A stretch of 42,167 nucleotides of DNA from a bacterium (GTDB lineage Bacteria > Bacillota_I > Bacilli_A > Izemoplasmatales > UBA1188): positions 1 to 42,167 of the forward strand of contig JAFXYB010000024.1 in assembly GCA_017541975.1 (NCBI GenBank). The letters are read 5' to 3'. The notes under the pieces were generated by a model that saw only the letters and a list, made by a program, of their open reading frames with translations, did no database searches and had not been told where the DNA came from. Below, in pieces: positions 23,587 through 34,754 of this stretch (within the stretch, counting starts at the first letter, position 1; each line of letters starts with the position of its first letter). The position numbers were made by a program, and so were the translations under genes.

Positions 23587-23592
23587 TTATTG

Positions 23593-24696
23593 ATGGATAG
23601 AATAGCCCTCAAACAAAATCTAGATCAAATCAAACCTCATTTTACTGACCTAGAGAATGTTTTAAATATAGCTAAACTTAATTCTCAAATAGAGAGCCTA
23701 ATGAAGCAAACTGAAGATGCTTCTTTTTGGCAAGATCAAGCTAAAGCTAAGGCTATCTTCCAACAATTAAACGATTTAAAATCCAAAAAAGAGATGTATG
23801 AATCTCTAAAATCATACCTAGATAACCTAGATCTCATCTATGAACTTTCAGTAGAAGATCCAGACTCACTTAATGAAAGTGATGAAATTCTATCATCTTA
23901 TGAATCTCTCTACCACACACTTGAAACTGAACTCCTCCTAAACGAGGAACAAGATAAACTAAACTGCATCTTAGAAATCCATTCAGGTGCTGGTGGCACT
24001 GAAAGTCTAGATTGGTCAGAAATGTTATTTAGAATGTATAAGATGTTTGCGATAAAGCACAAATTCAAAATGACTATCTTAGATTACCAAGAAGGTGAAG
24101 AAGTAGGCATAAAAAGCGTATCAATCCTTCTTGAAGGATTGTACGCCTATGGCTATTTGAAGAGTGAATCTGGTGTTCATCGCCTCGTTCGCTTATCACC
24201 ATTCGATTCTGATCACGCAAGACATACCACTTTCGCAAGCGTACTTGTGACTCCAGAAATCACCGATGAAATAAATATCGAACTCAATGAACAAGATCTA
24301 AGAATCGATGTCTTCCATTCATCAGGTGCCGGCGGGCAGAGTGTTAATACCACAGATAGCGCAGTAAGAATCACTCACATTCCATCAAAAATCGTTATCA
24401 CTTGTCAAAACGAAAGAAGCCAAATCCAAAACAAGGAAACCGCTCTTAAAGTTTTAAAGAGTAGACTCTACCAAATCGAACTTGAAAAGAGAAAAGCTGA
24501 AATCGATAAACTAAATAATAAATCACAAATTTCATTTGGTTCGCAGATTAGAAGTTATGTATTCCATCCATACACCCTTGTAAAGGACCACAGAACTCAA
24601 TATGAAACTTCACAAGGTGATAAAGTGATGAATGGTGAACTTGATGATTTTATAAACGCATACCTAAGATGGTATAAAGGTGATAATAATGATTAA
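23593..24696 (+). CDS. prfB: Peptide chain release factor 2, without programmed frameshift
   Basis: 367 residues from ATG 23593 (a TTG at 23590 is in frame one codon earlier). RF2 recognises TGA and TAA. Its tripeptide anticodon SPF (202-204) and the catalytic GGQ (247-249 in SSGAGGQSVN) are present. The N-terminal coiled region runs in one frame through the place where most RF2 genes carry the CTT-TGA +1 frameshift (here FTDLENVLNIAKLNSQIES, 17-35), so no frameshift is used and RF2 autoregulation by that route is absent. Translational coupling to secA is likely, and recX starts inside its 3' end. Confidence 0.96.
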   Translation: MDRIALKQNLDQIKPHFTDLENVLNIAKLNSQIESLMKQTEDASFWQDQAKAKAIFQQLNDLKSKKEMYESLKSYLDNLDLIYELSVEDPDSLNESDEILSSYESLYHTLETELLLNEEQDKLNCILEIHSGAGGTESLDWSEMLFRMYKMFAIKHKFKMTILDYQEGEEVGIKSVSILLEGLYAYGYLKSESGVHRLVRLSPFDSDHARHTTFASVLVTPEITDEINIELNEQDLRIDVFHSSGAGGQSVNTTDSAVRITHIPSKIVITCQNERSQIQNKETALKVLKSRLYQIELEKRKAEIDKLNNKSQISFGSQIRSYVFHPYTLVKDHRTQYETSQGDKVMNGELDDFINAYLRWYKGDNND

Positions 24697-25419: not shown

Positions 25420-27276
25420 ATGAACAATTTTGATTCCTTTAACCTGTATCTTTTCAACCAAGGAAAACTAGAAAAAGCTTACGAATTATTTGGTTCTCAC
25501 CTCGTTAAAGATGAAGATGGTAACACACTTGGAACTATCTTCAGAGTATATGCACCAAACGCAAGAATTGTATCAGTTATCGGTGATTTCAATGGCTGGG
25601 ATTCAAGAACTCACACCATGAGAAAAATCGATGATCAAGGTATCTTCGAATTATACATAGAAGGTATCAGAGAATGGGAAAAATACAAATACGTTATTGT
25701 CACTAACCAAAACGAGACACTCTTTAAAGCTGATCCATATGGATTCTTTAGTGATAATAGACCAGAGACATGCTCTAAGGTATATGATATCGATGGCTAT
25801 TACTGGCACGACAAAGAATACCTTGAAAGAAGAAAGAATAGCGATCAACTTCATGAACCACTATCAATCTATGAAATGAATATCGGTTCATGGATGACTA
25901 AACCAGATGGCAACTTCAACAAATACAATGAACTTCCACCTCTTTTAATTCCATATTTAAAGAAGATGGGATTCAATGCTGTTGAATTCATGCCTTTAGT
26001 TGAATTCCCTTTAGATGAATCTTGGGGATATCAAGGAACTGGTTATTATTCAGTTACATCAAGATATGGTGTTCCAAAAGATCTCATGTATCTAATAGAT
26101 GAACTCCACAAAAACAACATTAAAGTCATCATGGACTGGGTACCAGGACATATCTGCAAAGATGCTCATGGTCTTTACAAGTTTGATGGTAGTCATCTCT
26201 ATGAATTCGATGATGAATACAGAAGAGAAAACGTCACTTGGGGTACAGCTAACCTAGACCTTTCAAAAGGTACAACCAAATCATTCTTAATCTCTAATGC
26301 ATACTTTTTTATGGAATATTTCCATATTGATGGCTTTAGACTAGATGCTGTATCTAATATCTATTATTATCTCGGTGATCAAAGAAATGGTATCAATGAA
26401 GGTGGTGTCCAATTCTTAAAAGATTTATCTAATGCCGTTAAGGCATATGATAGAAACGTCATTCTCTCTGCGGAAGACTCAACTACCTTCCCTAACGTAA
26501 CTAAACCAGTAGAATATGGTGGAGTTGGCTTTGATTATAAATGGAATATGGGCTGGATGAACGATACTTTAAAATATTTCGCAAAAGATCCAATCCACAG
26601 AAAATATCACCACGACTATATAACATTCTCACTTGTCTATGCTTATAGTGAGAATTTCATCCTTCCACTTTCTCACGATGAAGTCGTTCATGGAAAGGGT
26701 TCGTTAATCGAAAAAATGCCTGGTGATTACTGGCAAAGATTCGCAAGTTTCAGAGCCCTAATCGGCTTTATGTTCACTCATCCAGGAAAGAAGCTTCTCT
26801 TTATGGGTGGTGAATTCGCTCAGTTTAGAGAATGGAGAGAAAAGAATGAACTAGACTGGTTCCTCCTCCAATACGATAGTCATAGAACCGCTCAAAACTA
26901 TGTAGCTTTCGTCAACAAACTCTATCAGAAGCATCCTGCACTCTACATCAATGATGACAATTATGAATCATTTAGATGGATTGATGCTTCTAATACTGAT
27001 CAATCAGTTTTCATCTATGAAAGAAAATGCAATGATGAAAACTTGATAGTTGCCTTAAATCTTACACCTAATTCATATCTTAACTACAAGATAGGTGTTC
27101 CATATAAAGGCACATACGAAGAAATATTAAATAGTGATAAATTAGAATTCGGTGGTTCAGATCTCTACAACGGTCTTCCACTAGATTCAATGGACAATCC
27201 AATGCATGGATTTGATCAATCAATTGAAATTACCCTTGCACCACTCTCAGTTTCTGTATTCAAAAAAATTAAATAG
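25420..27276 (+). CDS. glgB: 1,4-alpha-glucan branching enzyme
   Basis: 618 residues. Introduces alpha-1,6 branches into glycogen by cleaving and transferring alpha-1,4 segments. A CBM48 domain (about 35-125, VYAPNARIVSVIGDFNGW) leads into the GH13 barrel with FMPLVEFPLDESWGYQ, the nucleophile Asp309 in DGFRLDAV, the acid/base Glu352 in SAEDST and the transition-state His-Asp (419-420) in LPLSHDEVVHG. The C-terminal all-beta domain ends at LSVSVFKK. AAGGGGGG before the ATG is a strong RBS. It is the first of four glycogen genes packed with gaps of 2 bases or overlaps. Confidence 0.97.
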   Translation: MNNFDSFNLYLFNQGKLEKAYELFGSHLVKDEDGNTLGTIFRVYAPNARIVSVIGDFNGWDSRTHTMRKIDDQGIFELYIEGIREWEKYKYVIVTNQNETLFKADPYGFFSDNRPETCSKVYDIDGYYWHDKEYLERRKNSDQLHEPLSIYEMNIGSWMTKPDGNFNKYNELPPLLIPYLKKMGFNAVEFMPLVEFPLDESWGYQGTGYYSVTSRYGVPKDLMYLIDELHKNNIKVIMDWVPGHICKDAHGLYKFDGSHLYEFDDEYRRENVTWGTANLDLSKGTTKSFLISNAYFFMEYFHIDGFRLDAVSNIYYYLGDQRNGINEGGVQFLKDLSNAVKAYDRNVILSAEDSTTFPNVTKPVEYGGVGFDYKWNMGWMNDTLKYFAKDPIHRKYHHDYITFSLVYAYSENFILPLSHDEVVHGKGSLIEKMPGDYWQRFASFRALIGFMFTHPGKKLLFMGGEFAQFREWREKNELDWFLLQYDSHRTAQNYVAFVNKLYQKHPALYINDDNYESFRWIDASNTDQSVFIYERKCNDENLIVALNLTPNSYLNYKIGVPYKGTYEEILNSDKLEFGGSDLYNGLPLDSMDNPMHGFDQSIEITLAPLSVSVFKKIK

Positions 27277-27278
27277 AT

Positions 27279-28403
27279 ATGAAAGAATTAAGCGCAATCG
27301 TTCTTGTGGGTGGAAGAGGCTCTCGCCTCCAAGGTCTCACTAAAACCAAATCTAAATCTTATGTTAGTTTTATGGGAAAATATCGTATCATCGATTTTCC
27401 TCTTTCGTCACTTTCAAATTCGGGTGTAGAAGAAGTAGGACTCATCACTCAATATGAACCATATGAACTAATGCGCTATATCGGTAGTGGTAGTTCATGG
27501 GATTTAGATTATGTGAATGCTGGTATCTCATTCCTAACCCCATATGAAGCTAAAGGCTCACTCATCTATCAAAAAGGTACAGCTAATGCTGTACTAAGCC
27601 AAATTGGCTTCATCAAACAAATCCAATCTAAATACATCCTAATCCTATCAGGCGACCAAATCTATAAAATGGATTTTAGAGAAATATTAGAAGAACACAA
27701 GAAAAATGGTGCTGAACTCACAATCATATCTAAAGATATAACCGATGAAGCCGAAGACCTCACAAGATTCGGTATCATCGAATACGATAAGTATAATAAA
27801 GTGCTAGGTTTTGAAGAAAAACCAAAGAAACCAAAATCAAATAGAATCTCTCTTGGTATGTATCTTTTCAATAAAGATTTCCTTTTAAAATACCTCGAAT
27901 ATGCCGATAAGCTTGTAGATTTTGGTTCAGACCTTATCCCATTCCTCATCAAAGAGACAGATAGGGTATATTCTTATAACTACACAGGAAGATTTATGGA
28001 TGTTGGGACAGTAGAATCACTATACTATGGAAATATGTTCTACTTAGAACATCCAGAAATCTTAGATAATAAAGGCCAAAAATATAAAATATATTCACAT
28101 GCCTACGATTATCCACCACAAACTTTAGGCCCAAAAGCCAAAGTATCCTATTCGGTACTCACTGATGGATGTAAGATAAATGGTACAATCTTTCATTCAG
28201 TTATGTCATATGGTGTTACTCTAGAAGATGGCGCTGAAATAATTGATTCTGTGGTTCTTCCAAACACCAAAATAGGAAAAGGAACGAAAATTAAGAATGC
28301 CATAATCGATGAAGGACTCACCATAGCTGAAAACACGAACCTAGTGTTTGATAAACCTACCTTAATTGATGAGGATTATCTAGGAGGCCAAAATGTTCAA
28401 TAA
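27279..28403 (+). CDS. glgC: Glucose-1-phosphate adenylyltransferase, catalytic subunit
   Basis: 374 residues. Makes ADP-glucose from glucose-1-phosphate and ATP, the committed step of glycogen synthesis. The nucleotide loop VLVGGRGSRLQGLTK (8-22), GKYRIIDFPLS, YQKGTANAV, catalytic Asp in LSGDQIYKMD, FEEKP, and the sugar-binding VGTVESL are present. The C-terminal left-handed beta helix (INGTIFHSVMSYGV, VVLPNTKIGKG) fits GlgC. It starts 2 bases after the glgB stop and overlaps the next gene by 11 bases. In Bacillus GlgC works with the non-catalytic GlgD; here GlgD is fused to GlgA in the next gene. Confidence 0.96.
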   Translation: MKELSAIVLVGGRGSRLQGLTKTKSKSYVSFMGKYRIIDFPLSSLSNSGVEEVGLITQYEPYELMRYIGSGSSWDLDYVNAGISFLTPYEAKGSLIYQKGTANAVLSQIGFIKQIQSKYILILSGDQIYKMDFREILEEHKKNGAELTIISKDITDEAEDLTRFGIIEYDKYNKVLGFEEKPKKPKSNRISLGMYLFNKDFLLKYLEYADKLVDFGSDLIPFLIKETDRVYSYNYTGRFMDVGTVESLYYGNMFYLEHPEILDNKGQKYKIYSHAYDYPPQTLGPKAKVSYSVLTDGCKINGTIFHSVMSYGVTLEDGAEIIDSVVLPNTKIGKGTKIKNAIIDEGLTIAENTNLVFDKPTLIDEDYLGGQNVQ

Positions 28404-30816
28404 TATATTCGTTGTCATCGATGCCTCTGCACAGCTCAACTTTAAAACATTAACCAAACACCGTGTACCAGGCGCTATTCCAATTCTTGGTAAATATCGT
28501 ATGATTGATGTCGCAATCTCTGCGGCTACTCAAGCCAACATCACAAACGTTGGTGTCTTTTGCGATAGAAACTATAGAAGTTTAAATGACCATATAGGTG
28601 ATGGCGCAAGATTCAATCTTGGAAGAAGAGTAGATGGTATCTTCATCCTTCCTCCAAAATCCTTTAACCCAGTTGATGAATCTTTCATCTCCTTCCAAAG
28701 AATGAAGGATCAAGATGACTATTTTAGAAGATCTAATCAAGAATATTGTCTAATCATGCCATCAACTATCTACTGGTTCCCTGATTTAGAAAAATTAGTA
28801 AACGAACACATCAAATCAGGAAAAGATATCACCCAAGTAGTAAATAGAGATAATGAAAGGCTTTATGTCTTCATCATTCAAAAGAATAAACTGATGAACT
28901 ATATCGATAGTTATAGTTCCATCAATTATCGAAACATCGCTGAAGTATTTGATTATTCAACACAAGAAACCAAAAATACCATTGTTTATCGTAGATATGC
29001 AAAATACATCACAAATATCTATGAATACTATGATATCTCAATGAGTTTTATAAAGATTGCCTACCCAAGAGGTCTTGAAAGCTTAGAAAAGATTAGAGCG
29101 AAAGACCAATTTGATTCACCAACTTTCTATGGCATAAAATCAAATGTCAGTGAATCAATCCTCGCATCAGGCTGTTTCATAGATGGTACAGTCTATAATT
29201 CAATCCTATCAAGAAGGGTTAGGGTAGAAGAAGGCGCAGTAGTAAAGAACTCTATCATTATGAATAACTGTGTTATCAAGAAAAATGCCTATATAGAAAA
29301 CGCCATTATCGATAAAGAATCAATAATTGATGAAGGCGCAGAAGTTATTGGTACTAAAGATGAACCATTTGTATCTGAGAAGAAACAAACAGTTTATTCT
29401 ACAAAACACCCTTCAGTTGCGATGCTTTCAGCTGAATGTTCACCATTTGTAAAACGTGGTGGTCTTGCGGATATGGTTGGTTCACTTTCAACAGAAATAG
29501 CTCACCAAGGTTCTGAAGTATATTTCTTTATCCCTCTTTATAAAGAGATAAAGGAAAAATACATGAGTGAATTTGAAAAAGATAAAGAATTAACCCTCAC
29601 TATCTTTGATAAACAATATCACATCAATGTCTACAAAAAAGAATCAGAAAAGCTCACATATATCCTAATCGATCTATATATGTTCTTTGAAAGGGAAAAT
29701 GTCTATGGATATAAAGATGATCCATATAGATTCTCATATTTTACTTATGCTGCACTTGAATATTTAAGACTTAAGAAAATAAAGATTGATGTCTTCCATT
29801 TCCATGATTGGCATATGTGCTTACTTCCACTCTTTATGAAGAAATATGATGAATACAAAAAATCTTTATCAGTCCTCACAATTCACAACCTCTCATATCA
29901 GGGTATCACAAATAAAGAGGTAATCGATCACTTTGGCCTCGATTATTATATCGAAGGTGAAAATATGAACTTCTTAGAAATTGGTATCAATAGTGCCGAT
30001 ATCATAAACACCGTATCTAAAACATACGCAGAAGAATTAAAATATGTTTATTATTCAGGAAACCTAAGAGATTCTATCGCTAGAAGAACTCCGGATTTAT
30101 ATGGTATCGTAAATGGTCTATCAAGCCAGATTGGTCCATCAAACGATATGAATCTAAAAGCGAGATACAGTGTAAACGATAGTGATCTTTTTAAGAAGAA
30201 AGAAATAAATAAAAAATTCCTCGCAGATACCTGTGGATTCACCTATTCTAAAGATATGTTCATTATGGGTATGGTTTCTAGAATTGATCAAATCAAGGGT
30301 TTTCATCTTTTAGTAGATGCCCTTTATAATATCTTAGAAAACGAAAACATCTATTTTGTGCTCCTAGGTGTTGGCGATGAATCAATCGTAAGTCGCCTAA
30401 AAGAACTACAAAATAGATTCCCAGAAAGAGTAAAACTCTTCCTTGATTTCTATGGTACTGACCCATCATATATCTATAGTGGTTCTGATGTTTTCTTAAT
30501 GCCATCACTTATTGAACCATGTGGTACAAGCCAAATGATTGCCTTAAAATATGGCACAGTGCCAATTGTAAGACAAACTGGTGGTTTAAATGATACAATT
30601 CAATCATTCGATAAAACATCGAAGACAGGTAATGGTTTTAAGTTTTATAATCAAGATTATCGTGAACTTATAAATGCCATCAACATTGCCTATACGACAT
30701 ATAAAGAAAATAAGGATGATTGGAAAGTCCTCATAAAGAATGGAATGAAATGCGATTTCTCATTCAAGAAATGTGCCAAAGATTATCTAAATTTATATTC
30801 AATTGAAAGAAAGTGA
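28393..30816 (+). CDS. GlgD-GlgA fusion: ADP-glucose pyrophosphorylase regulatory subunit plus glycogen synthase
   Basis: 807 residues in one uninterrupted frame. Residues 1 to about 325 are GlgD-like: VPGAIPILGKYRMIDVAISA (25-44), YRSLNDHIGDGARFNLGRR, and a C-terminal beta helix (NSIIMNNCVIKKNAYIENAI). It lacks the G-x-G-x-R-L nucleotide loop of GlgC, as expected of the non-catalytic partner. A linker (about 326-340) leads into a full GT5 glycogen synthase: ECSPFVKRGGLADMVGSL (348-365), FHFHDWH (468-474), VSRIDQIKG (628-636), EPCGTSQM (708-715) and TGGL (729-732). It adds glucose from ADP-glucose to glycogen. AGGAGG at 28382-28387 and ATG 28393 lie inside the end of glgC. The junction shows no frameshift or internal start with a good RBS. 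Confidence 0.93.
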   Translation: MFNNIFVVIDASAQLNFKTLTKHRVPGAIPILGKYRMIDVAISAATQANITNVGVFCDRNYRSLNDHIGDGARFNLGRRVDGIFILPPKSFNPVDESFISFQRMKDQDDYFRRSNQEYCLIMPSTIYWFPDLEKLVNEHIKSGKDITQVVNRDNERLYVFIIQKNKLMNYIDSYSSINYRNIAEVFDYSTQETKNTIVYRRYAKYITNIYEYYDISMSFIKIAYPRGLESLEKIRAKDQFDSPTFYGIKSNVSESILASGCFIDGTVYNSILSRRVRVEEGAVVKNSIIMNNCVIKKNAYIENAIIDKESIIDEGAEVIGTKDEPFVSEKKQTVYSTKHPSVAMLSAECSPFVKRGGLADMVGSLSTEIAHQGSEVYFFIPLYKEIKEKYMSEFEKDKELTLTIFDKQYHINVYKKESEKLTYILIDLYMFFERENVYGYKDDPYRFSYFTYAALEYLRLKKIKIDVFHFHDWHMCLLPLFMKKYDEYKKSLSVLTIHNLSYQGITNKEVIDHFGLDYYIEGENMNFLEIGINSADIINTVSKTYAEELKYVYYSGNLRDSIARRTPDLYGIVNGLSSQIGPSNDMNLKARYSVNDSDLFKKKEINKKFLADTCGFTYSKDMFIMGMVSRIDQIKGFHLLVDALYNILENENIYFVLLGVGDESIVSRLKELQNRFPERVKLFLDFYGTDPSYIYSGSDVFLMPSLIEPCGTSQMIALKYGTVPIVRQTGGLNDTIQSFDKTSKTGNGFKFYNQDYRELINAINIAYTTYKENKDDWKVLIKNGMKCDFSFKKCAKDYLNLYSIERK

Positions 30817-30824
30817 GAATAATC

Positions 30825-33224
30825 ATGAATAGTTATTTCAAATCAAATAAAGATTTCCTAAAAGAATTTAGTCAAAGACTAAAAAATAAATATTTAGTTG
30901 ATATAAAATCATCGAGTGATAGAATGAGATACAATGTCTTAAGTTCAATGATTATGGACCATACATCAGATTCATGGATTAAGACAAATAAACTCAAAGA
31001 TAAAAAAGGTTCAAAAGAAGTATATTATTTCTCAATGGAATTCCTTCTTGGTAGACTCACAAAATCTAACCTCTATTCACTTGGAGTTTATGAACTAGTG
31101 GAGAATAGTTTAAAAGAAGAAAATATCTCACTAGATGCCATCCTCGAACAAGAAAAAGATCCAGGTCTCGGTAATGGTGGTCTTGGAAGGCTTGCGGCTT
31201 GTTACTTTGATTCACTCGCATCCCTTGCTTATCCTGCAACTGGCAATACCATAAGATATAGATACGGTTTATTCCGCCAAAAAATTAAGAACGGTTATCA
31301 AGAAGAACGCCCTGATGACTGGCTATCAGATGGCTTTTCTTATGAAATAAGAAGGGAAGAAGAAGCGATTGAAATTCCTCTTTATGGCTATGTTGCCTTT
31401 GAAGAAGGAAAACGCATCTATCATCCAAGTGAGTATATTAAAGCTGTACCATACGATGTTCCAATAATCGGTTATAATAACGAAATCGTCGATACACTTA
31501 GACTTTGGAATGCTGAACCTGCCAGAAAATATCCACTAAATAAGACAGCTTTTGAATATGAAAATGATTTAAGAAGAATCTGTGGTTTCTTATATCCAGA
31601 TGATTCAAGTGAAGATGGAAAAAGACTCCGTCTTGTCCAACAATATTTCTTTAGTGCAGCCGGACTTAGATCAATCGTCGACAAAGAAAAGAAAAGATAT
31701 AATACCCTCTTAAATCTCGGTGATCATGTCATCATTCACCTAAACGATACACATCCAACCATCATCATCTCAGAACTCATGAGAGTTCTTTTAGATGAAG
31801 AAGGAATGGAATGGGCTGATGCCTTTGAAATCGTAAAGAAGTGTACATGCTATACAAATCACACCCTCTTAAGAGAAGCCCTTGAAACCTGGAACAATGA
31901 TCTTGTAAGAAGTATTCTTCCAAGAAATATGGAAATTATTGATGAAATCAATCGTCGATTTGTCGATGGTCTATATCAAGATGGATATAAAAGAGAATTC
32001 GTCGATCAAGTTGCGATTATCAAAGATAATCACGTTCATATGGCTAACCTTCTCGCTCATGTATCTTATAGCGTAAATGGCGTTGCGAAAATCCATTCAG
32101 ATTTATTAAAAACCACCGTTATGAAAGAGTTCAACGAACTCTATCCAGAAAAATTTAAAAATGTAACTAATGGTGTAACTCCAAGAAGATGGTTAATGTT
32201 CGCAAATCCACTCCTATCTAATCTCTTAGATGAATATGTAGAAGGCTGGAGATATGACATCAATAAATTATCTGAACTTGAAAATAAACTTGATAATGAA
32301 AAATTATTAGATTCATTCACAAGAATAAAACACGAAAATAAGAAACGCCTTGCTGAATATATCAATAAGACCAACCCACAACTAAAACATAAATGTGATC
32401 CATCATTCATCTTTGATGTTCAAGTAAAGAGACTTCACGAATATAAGAGGCAACTATTAAATGCTCTCCATATAATCTATCTTTATATTAGACTCAAAAA
32501 TGATACTGAATTTAGAAAGAACTTTGTACCACATGCCTTCATATTTGGTGCAAAGGCAGCCAGTGGTTACTATTTTGCGAAGAAGGTCATCAAACTCATC
32601 AACACTATCTCTAAAAAGATTGATGAGGATGATGAAATCTCTAAATATCTTCAAGTTATCTTCATTGAAAACTATGGAGTATCAATCGCTGAACTAATCA
32701 TGCCTGCAGTAGAAGTTAGTGAACAAATCTCCCTCGCATCATTTGAGGCATCAGGCACAGGCAATATGAAAGCGATGATGAATGGTTCAATCACCCTTGG
32801 TACACTAGATGGAGCTAACGTAGAAATCCACGATTTAGTAGGTGATAGCAATATGGAAATCTTTGGTTATACCAAAGATGAAGTTCAAGCTCTAAGACCT
32901 AATTATTCATCTCGTCCTTTCTACGAAAGTAATGGCTACATCAAATGTGCAGTAGATGCCCTTGTGAATGGCTTCTTTGATACGGTTAATCCAACTGAAT
33001 TCAAAGAAATCTATGAAAGACTCCTCTATAACGATGAATATATGGTTCTCGGTGATTTTGAAGGCTATAGAATCGCTCAAGAACACATCAATGAGTTATA
33101 CAAGAATCAAAAAGAATTCTCTAGAATCTGTCTATATAACACCATTAAATCACCATATTTCTCAAGCGATAGATCGATTGAAGATTACGCAAGAGATATC
33201 TGGCACATTAGTAAACTTAAATAG
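30825..33224 (+). CDS. glgP: Glycogen phosphorylase
   Basis: 799 residues from ATG 30825. A GTG at 30813 overlapping the previous stop is in frame but gives an unusual N-terminus. Releases glucose-1-phosphate from glycogen by phosphorolysis with PLP. FSMEFLLGR, LGNGGLGRLAACYFDSLAS, HLNDTHPT, and VKRLHEYKRQLLN are all family marks. The PLP-binding Lys is in EASGTGNMKAMMNGS, where S-N-M-K is usual and G-N-M-K is seen here, and LGTLDGANVEI follows. The ygjP gene begins right after the stop (TAGATG), so translational coupling is likely. Confidence 0.97.
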   Translation: MNSYFKSNKDFLKEFSQRLKNKYLVDIKSSSDRMRYNVLSSMIMDHTSDSWIKTNKLKDKKGSKEVYYFSMEFLLGRLTKSNLYSLGVYELVENSLKEENISLDAILEQEKDPGLGNGGLGRLAACYFDSLASLAYPATGNTIRYRYGLFRQKIKNGYQEERPDDWLSDGFSYEIRREEEAIEIPLYGYVAFEEGKRIYHPSEYIKAVPYDVPIIGYNNEIVDTLRLWNAEPARKYPLNKTAFEYENDLRRICGFLYPDDSSEDGKRLRLVQQYFFSAAGLRSIVDKEKKRYNTLLNLGDHVIIHLNDTHPTIIISELMRVLLDEEGMEWADAFEIVKKCTCYTNHTLLREALETWNNDLVRSILPRNMEIIDEINRRFVDGLYQDGYKREFVDQVAIIKDNHVHMANLLAHVSYSVNGVAKIHSDLLKTTVMKEFNELYPEKFKNVTNGVTPRRWLMFANPLLSNLLDEYVEGWRYDINKLSELENKLDNEKLLDSFTRIKHENKKRLAEYINKTNPQLKHKCDPSFIFDVQVKRLHEYKRQLLNALHIIYLYIRLKNDTEFRKNFVPHAFIFGAKAASGYYFAKKVIKLINTISKKIDEDDEISKYLQVIFIENYGVSIAELIMPAVEVSEQISLASFEASGTGNMKAMMNGSITLGTLDGANVEIHDLVGDSNMEIFGYTKDEVQALRPNYSSRPFYESNGYIKCAVDALVNGFFDTVNPTEFKEIYERLLYNDEYMVLGDFEGYRIAQEHINELYKNQKEFSRICLYNTIKSPYFSSDRSIEDYARDIWHISKLK

Positions 33225-33886: not shown

Positions 33887-33891
33887 TATCT

Positions 33892-33998
33892 TGACTTCGG
33901 GGTAGAGTGTAATTCTCAACTGGCGGTATAGCCCGCGAACCGTAAGGCCGATTAGGTGAAATTCCTAAGCCAACAGTATAGTCTGGATGAAAGAAGTT
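33892..33998 (+). ncRNA. FMN riboswitch aptamer (RFN element)
   Basis: The conserved order of RFN blocks is present: CTTCGGGGTAGAGTG (P1 and P2 side), AATTCTCAACTGGCGGTATAGCCCGCGA, CCG, GGTGAAATTCCTAAGCC, AACAGTATAGTCTGGATGAAAGAAG. P1 closes with ACTTC (33894-33898) against GAAGT (33993-33997). It senses flavin mononucleotide and, in riboflavin genes of Firmicutes, turns expression off when FMN is abundant. Confidence 0.96.
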
Positions 33999-34007
33999 TT
34001 TGTTTTG

Positions 34008-34036
34008 AAAAGTGACCCTGAAGTTGTCACTTTTTT
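34008..34036 (+). terminator. Riboswitch-controlled terminator before ribU
   Basis: AAAAGTGAC (34008-34016) pairs with GTCACTTTT (34026-34034), followed by a T-run. It sits 10 bases after the aptamer and 20 bases before the ribU start, the expected place for FMN-dependent attenuation. Confidence 0.88.
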
Positions 34037-34055
34037 ATTTTTAAGGAGAACACAT

Positions 34056-34754
34056 ATGGAAAAAGACTTTTATTATGAAGAAGAAGAGAAAGGAATAGTT
34101 CAGGAAGAGGTTAAACCAAATAAGCTTTCAATTAAAACTCAGTTTGAAACCAAGAAAGGAAGAATGAGGTTTTTAACTCGTGTTTCGATGTTTTCAGCAC
34201 TGTCAACAGTTTTCTATTGTTGGCTTAAATTCCCACTACCTTTTTTCCCTCCAATTCTAAAGGTTAGCTTTTCTAATCTATTTATTATAATTGGTTCGCT
34301 CTTAACTGGACCAATTGGTGGTATAATAATATCAGTAATAAGATTTCTCTTAAAACTGATATTATCACCAACATCAACCGCTTTTATAGGTGAACTCACT
34401 GATTTAATCATTGCCTTATCGGTTGCGCTTCCTGCATCTCTCACCTATCTATTTATTCATACTAAAAAAGGCGGTATGCTTGGAATCTTATTATCATTCA
34501 TCTCTTGGATAGTTATGTCTCTTGTGGTAAATGTTCTAATTTCTCTACCAATGTATCTAAATCTCTATGGTCTAGATGCATGCCTTGGAATGTTTAAAGC
34601 ATTTGCCCCAGATATTACAGAAGAGAATCTCACATCCATTTATCTATGGTATTTTATCCTACCATTCAATGCGCTTGTCGCATTTGTGAATTGTGGCCTT
34701 GCCTTAATCGTCTATAAAAAGACATCATCACTACTAAAGACTATCGGTATATAG
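34056..34754 (+). CDS. ribU: Riboflavin ECF transporter S component RibU
   Basis: 232 residues from ATG 34056, with AAGGAG 8 bases upstream. It is a membrane protein of about six helices after a hydrophilic N-terminal tail (1-45). The segment LPFFPPILKVSFSNLFIIIGSLLTGPIGG is the riboflavin-binding S-component signature, and AFIGELTDL follows. With the shared ATPase/T module (encoded elsewhere) it imports riboflavin. The FMN riboswitch directly upstream confirms the substrate. An ATG at 33987 lies inside the aptamer and is not a start. The next gene starts 10 bases downstream, so the riboswitch may also affect later genes. Confidence 0.94.
   Translation: MEKDFYYEEEEKGIVQEEVKPNKLSIKTQFETKKGRMRFLTRVSMFSALSTVFYCWLKFPLPFFPPILKVSFSNLFIIIGSLLTGPIGGIIISVIRFLLKLILSPTSTAFIGELTDLIIALSVALPASLTYLFIHTKKGGMLGILLSFISWIVMSLVVNVLISLPMYLNLYGLDACLGMFKAFAPDITEENLTSIYLWYFILPFNALVAFVNCGLALIVYKKTSSLLKTIGI

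Follow-up and report, generated by a model that had tools for sequence, protein, structure and literature searches.

A GlgD-type domain joined to a complete glycogen synthase in one reading frame in Izemoplasmatales and two further families of its class

The 42,167-nucleotide stretch of DNA analysed here (the window) holds an 807-codon gene whose product is confirmed to be a GlgD-type domain joined to a complete glycogen synthase, GlgA. The fusion is best explained as a chimeric subunit of the glycogen pathway. The C-terminal half would be a working ADP-glucose-dependent glycogen synthase, and the N-terminal half a catalytically dead, shortened GlgD that would associate with the GlgC encoded next to it, in the manner of free GlgD in other Firmicutes. 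A single hetero-oligomer of GlgC and the fusion would then both produce ADP-glucose and bear the enzyme that consumes it. The gene would have arisen in a glgBCDAP operon when the stop codon separating glgD from the adjoining glgA was lost, presumably after the GlgD of that lineage had shed its sugar-phosphate arm. We consider this account as a whole, an active synthase born by stop loss whose dead GlgD part docks to GlgC or regulates it, to be moderately probable; the docking of the D half to GlgC and its role in regulation are what we infer.

The fusion gene and its operon

The features of the locus are given in Table 1. A frame scan of the window found a single frame running from ATG to TGA with no internal stop. 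Using NCBIfam and Pfam profiles, GlgD/GlgC-type matches were confined to residues 1–333 and GlgA/GT5 matches to residues 342–803. In a sequence search of solved structures, ADP-glucose pyrophosphorylases matched the first part, and glycogen and starch synthases the second. The predicted structure of the fusion has a mean pLDDT of 88.9 and a moderate pTM of 0.63, with the arrangement of the domains left undefined by the model. The E/Q-K-x-Q motif of the linker is conserved in most fusions in the alignment.

Table 1. Features of the glycogen operon in the window
Feature	Position	Strand	Evidence and remarks
glgB, branching enzyme	25420..27276	+	Over NCBIfam cut-off
glgC, catalytic ADP-glucose pyrophosphorylase subunit	27279..28403	+	Intact GGRGSRL, SGDQIYK, FEEKP and DVGT; 11-nt overlap with fusion
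Shine–Dalgarno sequence of fusion, AGGAGG	28382..28387	+	Within 3' end of glgC, 5 nt upstream of fusion ATG
glgD::glgA fusion gene, 807 codons	28393..30816	+	Single frame; GlgD-type and GlgA profile matches; kept in the order
GlgD-type half, codons 1–322	28393..29358	+	TIGR02092 in two stretches; PF00483 19–149; PF24894 249–321
Site of glucose-1-phosphate arm deletion, ~36 residues gone	28837..28851	+	Alignment of GlgC and long, short and fused GlgD; split profile match 3–151/185–369
Junction linker, codons 323–340, DEPFVSEKKQTVYSTKHP region	29359..29412	+	E/Q-K-x-Q motif; model pLDDT ~72–78
Complete GT5 glycogen synthase half, codons 341–807	29413..30813	+	TIGR02095 423 bits; catalytic residues; fold match
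glgP, glycogen phosphorylase	30813..33224	+	TIGR02093 994 bits; GTG at 30813, alternative ATG at 30825

The operon reads glgB–glgC–glgD::glgA–glgP. The order glgBCDAP is known in Bacillus, and the operon of the window is this classic Bacilli arrangement with D and A joined. The same order is known in Lactobacillus (PMC4282360). Across the order of the window, family f10 and the Turicibacter family (f14), the order glgB–glgC–glgDA–glgP is maintained, and glgC lies immediately upstream of the fusion, overlapping or abutting it, at nearly all loci. Upstream of the operon are secA, prfB and recX, a neighbourhood that is conserved in UBA1188 and in genome G010. The prfB gene (release factor 2; window 23590–24696) is one continuous frame, with no sign near its start of a CTTTGA site for programmed frameshifting. 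Downstream, an FMN riboswitch (window 33889–34002, 107 bits) lies just upstream of a gene for an ECF transporter substrate-binding protein (33987–34754), suggesting that the latter is a component of a riboflavin transporter.

The genome of the window also carries a second, unfused glgA2–glgC2 pair on another contig (L037:5394–8086), with a GlgC2 of ~413 amino acids, so that the fusion is not the sole route. Many genomes of the order, as well as other families, have comparable pairs; in Turicibacter the two genes stand in reverse order. The preliminary description had proposed that fusion fixes a 1:1 ratio of D to A; this holds within the fusion protein, but goes no further, because the same genome encodes the standalone pair.

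Distribution and integrity of the frame

The whole fusion was found in one frame in 51 of the 61 genomes of the order. It was fragmented or shortened in five others and absent or decayed in the remaining five (G011, G021, G040, G049 and G055). In G049 (L101), with a genome of ~1.0 Mb, the entire glg operon has decayed to fragments, and G041 of the same genus has an intact fusion. A search of 395 genomes of the class added three carriers in family f10 and six in family f14, and listed no full-length fusion in any other family. The matches listed by a phylum-level search all lay within the same class, so that Clostridia were outside its coverage. Among other large GlgA frames returned by the class searches there were no GlgD fusions, and several had Lys/Ala/Glu-rich tails. 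In family f15, four loci (L109, L110, L111 and L112) encode a glycogen synthase with a low-complexity N-terminal extension of 150–360 residues, rich in Lys/Ala/Glu/Thr, before the GT5 domain.

The carriers are gut and sediment bacteria, among them wall-less marine bacteria in culture and Turicibacter, a gut commensal. Cultured carriers appear to be Xianfuyuplasma, Hujiaoplasma, Turicibacter sanguinis, T. faecis and T. bilis: G013 probably corresponds to Xianfuyuplasma coldseepsis zrk13 (PMC8397711), G010 to Hujiaoplasma nucleasis zrk29 (PMC10470597), and G071, G082 and G100 to T. faecis TC023, T. sanguinis MOL361 and T. bilis MMM721, respectively (PMC11165905).

A stop-free frame in 51 genomes of the order and nine genomes of two further families excludes chance and sequencing error, and an error near codons 325–340 in particular is ruled out by the 51 genomes with one frame. 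The earlier claims that the two proteins are joined in one frame and that such joining is rare were borne out, the first by profile matches to both families and conservation of the frame, the second by the restriction of the listed full-length fusions to the order of the window, f10 and f14 among the 395 class genomes; the other proteins with both domains that the preliminary description called for were found across the order and in f10 and f14. The same counts make it highly improbable that the halves are made separately, through an internal start or processing, or that the fusion is an assembly error. Two f10 genomes (L044 and L045) do have a Met at the former GlgA start position, as separate synthesis would allow. 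In the alignment, however, the other fusions do not keep this Met, and in the window the only nearby ATG, codon 344, lies inside the first GlgA strand. The window has no ribosome-binding site upstream of it from which GlgA could be made on its own; as codon 344 lacks a Shine–Dalgarno sequence, separate translation of GlgA was rejected.

The GlgA half

The GlgA half scored 423.1 bits against TIGR02095 (residues 342–803), over the cut-off of 328.45. Foldseek matched this half of the model to E. coli glycogen synthase (PDB entry 2QZS) with a TMt of 0.88. In an alignment of 32 fusions the catalytic residues KxGGL, HDWH, NG, R630, K635, EPCG and TGGLxDT are conserved, including the R and K of the SRxxxxKG motif, apart from minor substitutions, for instance HDWH to HDWL in Turicibacter. 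All active-site motifs of GlgA had been described as intact; this stands for the catalytic residues, but the GIDxxxW-NPxTD motif is altered to GLSSQI-GPSND in the window. Taken together, the half is probably a working ADP-glucose-dependent glycogen synthase.

The GlgD half

The D half consists of a nucleotidyltransferase fold followed by a left-handed β-helix (codons ~249–321), and its model matched the ADP-glucose pyrophosphorylase fold (TMt up to ~0.68 against the E. coli enzyme; Foldseek). Against TIGR02092 it scored 227.5 bits, slightly below the cut-off of 236.6, in two stretches; the match is split because ~35 profile positions are missing. Orthologues such as that in G013 reach 296 bits with the stretches joined. 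The missing segment contains the glucose-1-phosphate arm (FEEKP...SxGMY), which a deletion of ~36 residues has removed from all fused GlgDs and from four unfused short GlgDs, and which is present in the alignment in GlgC and in full-length GlgDs of other families. This shared deletion is the distinctive feature of the D half and was overlooked in the preliminary description, which had singled out the missing GlgC nucleotide loop. That loop (GGxGxRL) is indeed missing, but it is absent from every GlgD compared and is not special to the fusion. In the alignment the D half also lacks both catalytic Asp motifs and the EKP/SxGMY sugar-phosphate site. A catalytically active D half was ruled out by the absence of all GlgC catalytic motifs; since these are all present in the adjacent GlgC, GlgC must supply catalysis.

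The loss of every one of these motifs is what would be expected of a functionless passenger, carried along neutrally after the stop codon was lost. We regard this as very improbable, as the D half is conserved to the same degree as GlgA across the order and beyond. Mean pairwise identity over 38 genomes is 0.50, 0.50 and 0.50 for the D half, the A half and GlgC, respectively. Among the three closest relatives dN/dS is 0.08–0.11 for the D half and 0.10–0.13 for the A half, so values near 0.1 apply to D as well, and the invariant residues of the D half in the fusion alignment are numerous. Loss of D with retention of the fused A was seen in no genome. Purifying selection thus acts on both halves, and conservation and dN/dS disfavour a vestigial D half.

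Origin of the fusion

In a tree rooted on GlgC, all GlgDs, including the fused ones, were separated from GlgC with support of 100/100. Within GlgD, the fused sequences and the four unfused short GlgDs formed one clade (100/99). The fused GlgA halves fell on one side of a single branch (99/97), and independent fusions in each order are not needed. For the D halves the free optimum implied two changes, and a single clade was not rejected (AU p = 0.33).

Two genomes of g78, in the family of Turicibacter (G124 and G554), have a short glgD whose stop codon is immediately followed, with no change of frame, by the glgA ATG; the junction in G124 reads ...YKEWI TAA ATG AAG.... One in-frame stop between glgD and glgA in two genomes suggests that the fusion arose by stop loss. 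In-frame unfused glgD–glgA pairs are over-represented in the sample, because the search joins only matches in the same frame. The simplest history would be shortening of GlgD first, followed by fusion through stop loss. In the best tree the unfused GlgA of g78 stood apart from the fused GlgA halves (constrained grouping, AU p = 0.077), so that the fusions may or may not descend from precisely this gene pair. The unfused state in g78 may possibly reflect fission instead of being primary, and a grouping of the g78 D with the Turicibacter fusions was not rejected (AU p = 0.15).

Relation of the fusion to GlgC

Firmicutes are known to have GlgC/GlgD tetramers in which GlgD is inactive (PMC9093745). 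Binding of GlgC by the fusion is plausible because GlgD is a known partner of GlgC, glgC is adjacent to and overlaps the fusion gene, and the evolutionary rates covary. On a fixed tree, covariation of branch rates with the D half was 0.50 for A, 0.35 for C (p = 0.003), −0.05 for P and −0.15 for B; with ten comparisons, the D–C value is moderately significant at ~0.03 after correction. Distance-based covariation agrees (partial D–C 0.44, D–P −0.04). Rate covariation can arise from shared pathway constraint, and these values are indirect signs in the sequences that D may be tied to the function of both GlgA and GlgC.

In the main rival account the D half has given up binding GlgC and serves GlgA alone, as an oligomerization or effector-sensing module acting through its β-helix. 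The strongest rate covariation of D is indeed that with A, and loss of the sugar-phosphate arm is a departure from the ordinary GlgC/GlgD design. Moreover, two fusion carriers of family f10 retain elsewhere an extra glgC with an unfused short glgD and no adjoining glgA (L097:3569–5730 and L098:14723–16908). We nevertheless think this scaffold or sensor role for GlgA alone improbable, though to be taken seriously: glgC directly upstream overlaps or abuts the fusion at nearly all loci, the rate of D also covaries with that of GlgC, and the unfused short GlgDs themselves adjoin glgC, so the short form still resembles a GlgC partner.

Under the preferred reading, in which the D half docks to GlgC, the fusion predicts a pyrophosphorylase–synthase complex and, with it, a possible physical link between the two steps of sugar storage. 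Bacterial glycogen synthesis is considered to be controlled at the step of ADP-glucose pyrophosphorylase. The further idea of a stable putative complex that passes ADP-glucose between active sites with little release is doubtful and is put forward tentatively; if true, channelling would insulate the fusion pathway from the parallel glgA2–glgC2 pair in the same cell. Coupling is open to test, since there are cultured carriers and unfused sister forms for comparison.

Comparison with known systems

No earlier report of a GlgD–GlgA fusion was found in the open literature (subscription papers and protein databases lay outside the scope of the search); both parts belong to known families. An old natural fusion of this kind is genomic evidence for a role of GlgD beyond tuning the kinetics of GlgC, and a short GlgD without the sugar site offers a natural test of which of its parts are important.

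The nearest likeness is to the GlgC/GlgD pairs of Firmicutes (Geobacillus, Streptococcus and Ruminococcus), in which a glgBCDAP-type operon likewise encodes a catalytic GlgC and, next to it, an inactive GlgD. Their pyrophosphorylase fold and β-helix persist in the D half, but it is ~36 residues shorter than Firmicutes GlgD, has no sugar-phosphate arm and is linked covalently to glycogen synthase. The other half resembles bacterial GlgA (GT5; E. coli, 2QZS; Agrobacterium tumefaciens, 1RZU) in having the whole GT5 domain with conserved catalytic residues, and differs in the added 322-residue N-terminal GlgD-type domain and in the loss, in most members, of its own GlgA start codon. The GlgA–GlgB fusion of Waddliaceae and Criblamydiaceae likewise joins glycogen synthase to a protein of the same pathway, with another partner and another order, and reportedly goes together with breakdown of the pathway and a branching domain that is inactive (PMC7935935), whereas GlgD::GlgA is old, widespread and under purifying selection. 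The TreS–Mak (TreS–Pep2) fusion of the GlgE pathway (PMC11046441, PMC7935935) also places consecutive glucan-pathway steps in one chain; both of its parts are catalytic, whereas one half of GlgD::GlgA is a dead subunit.
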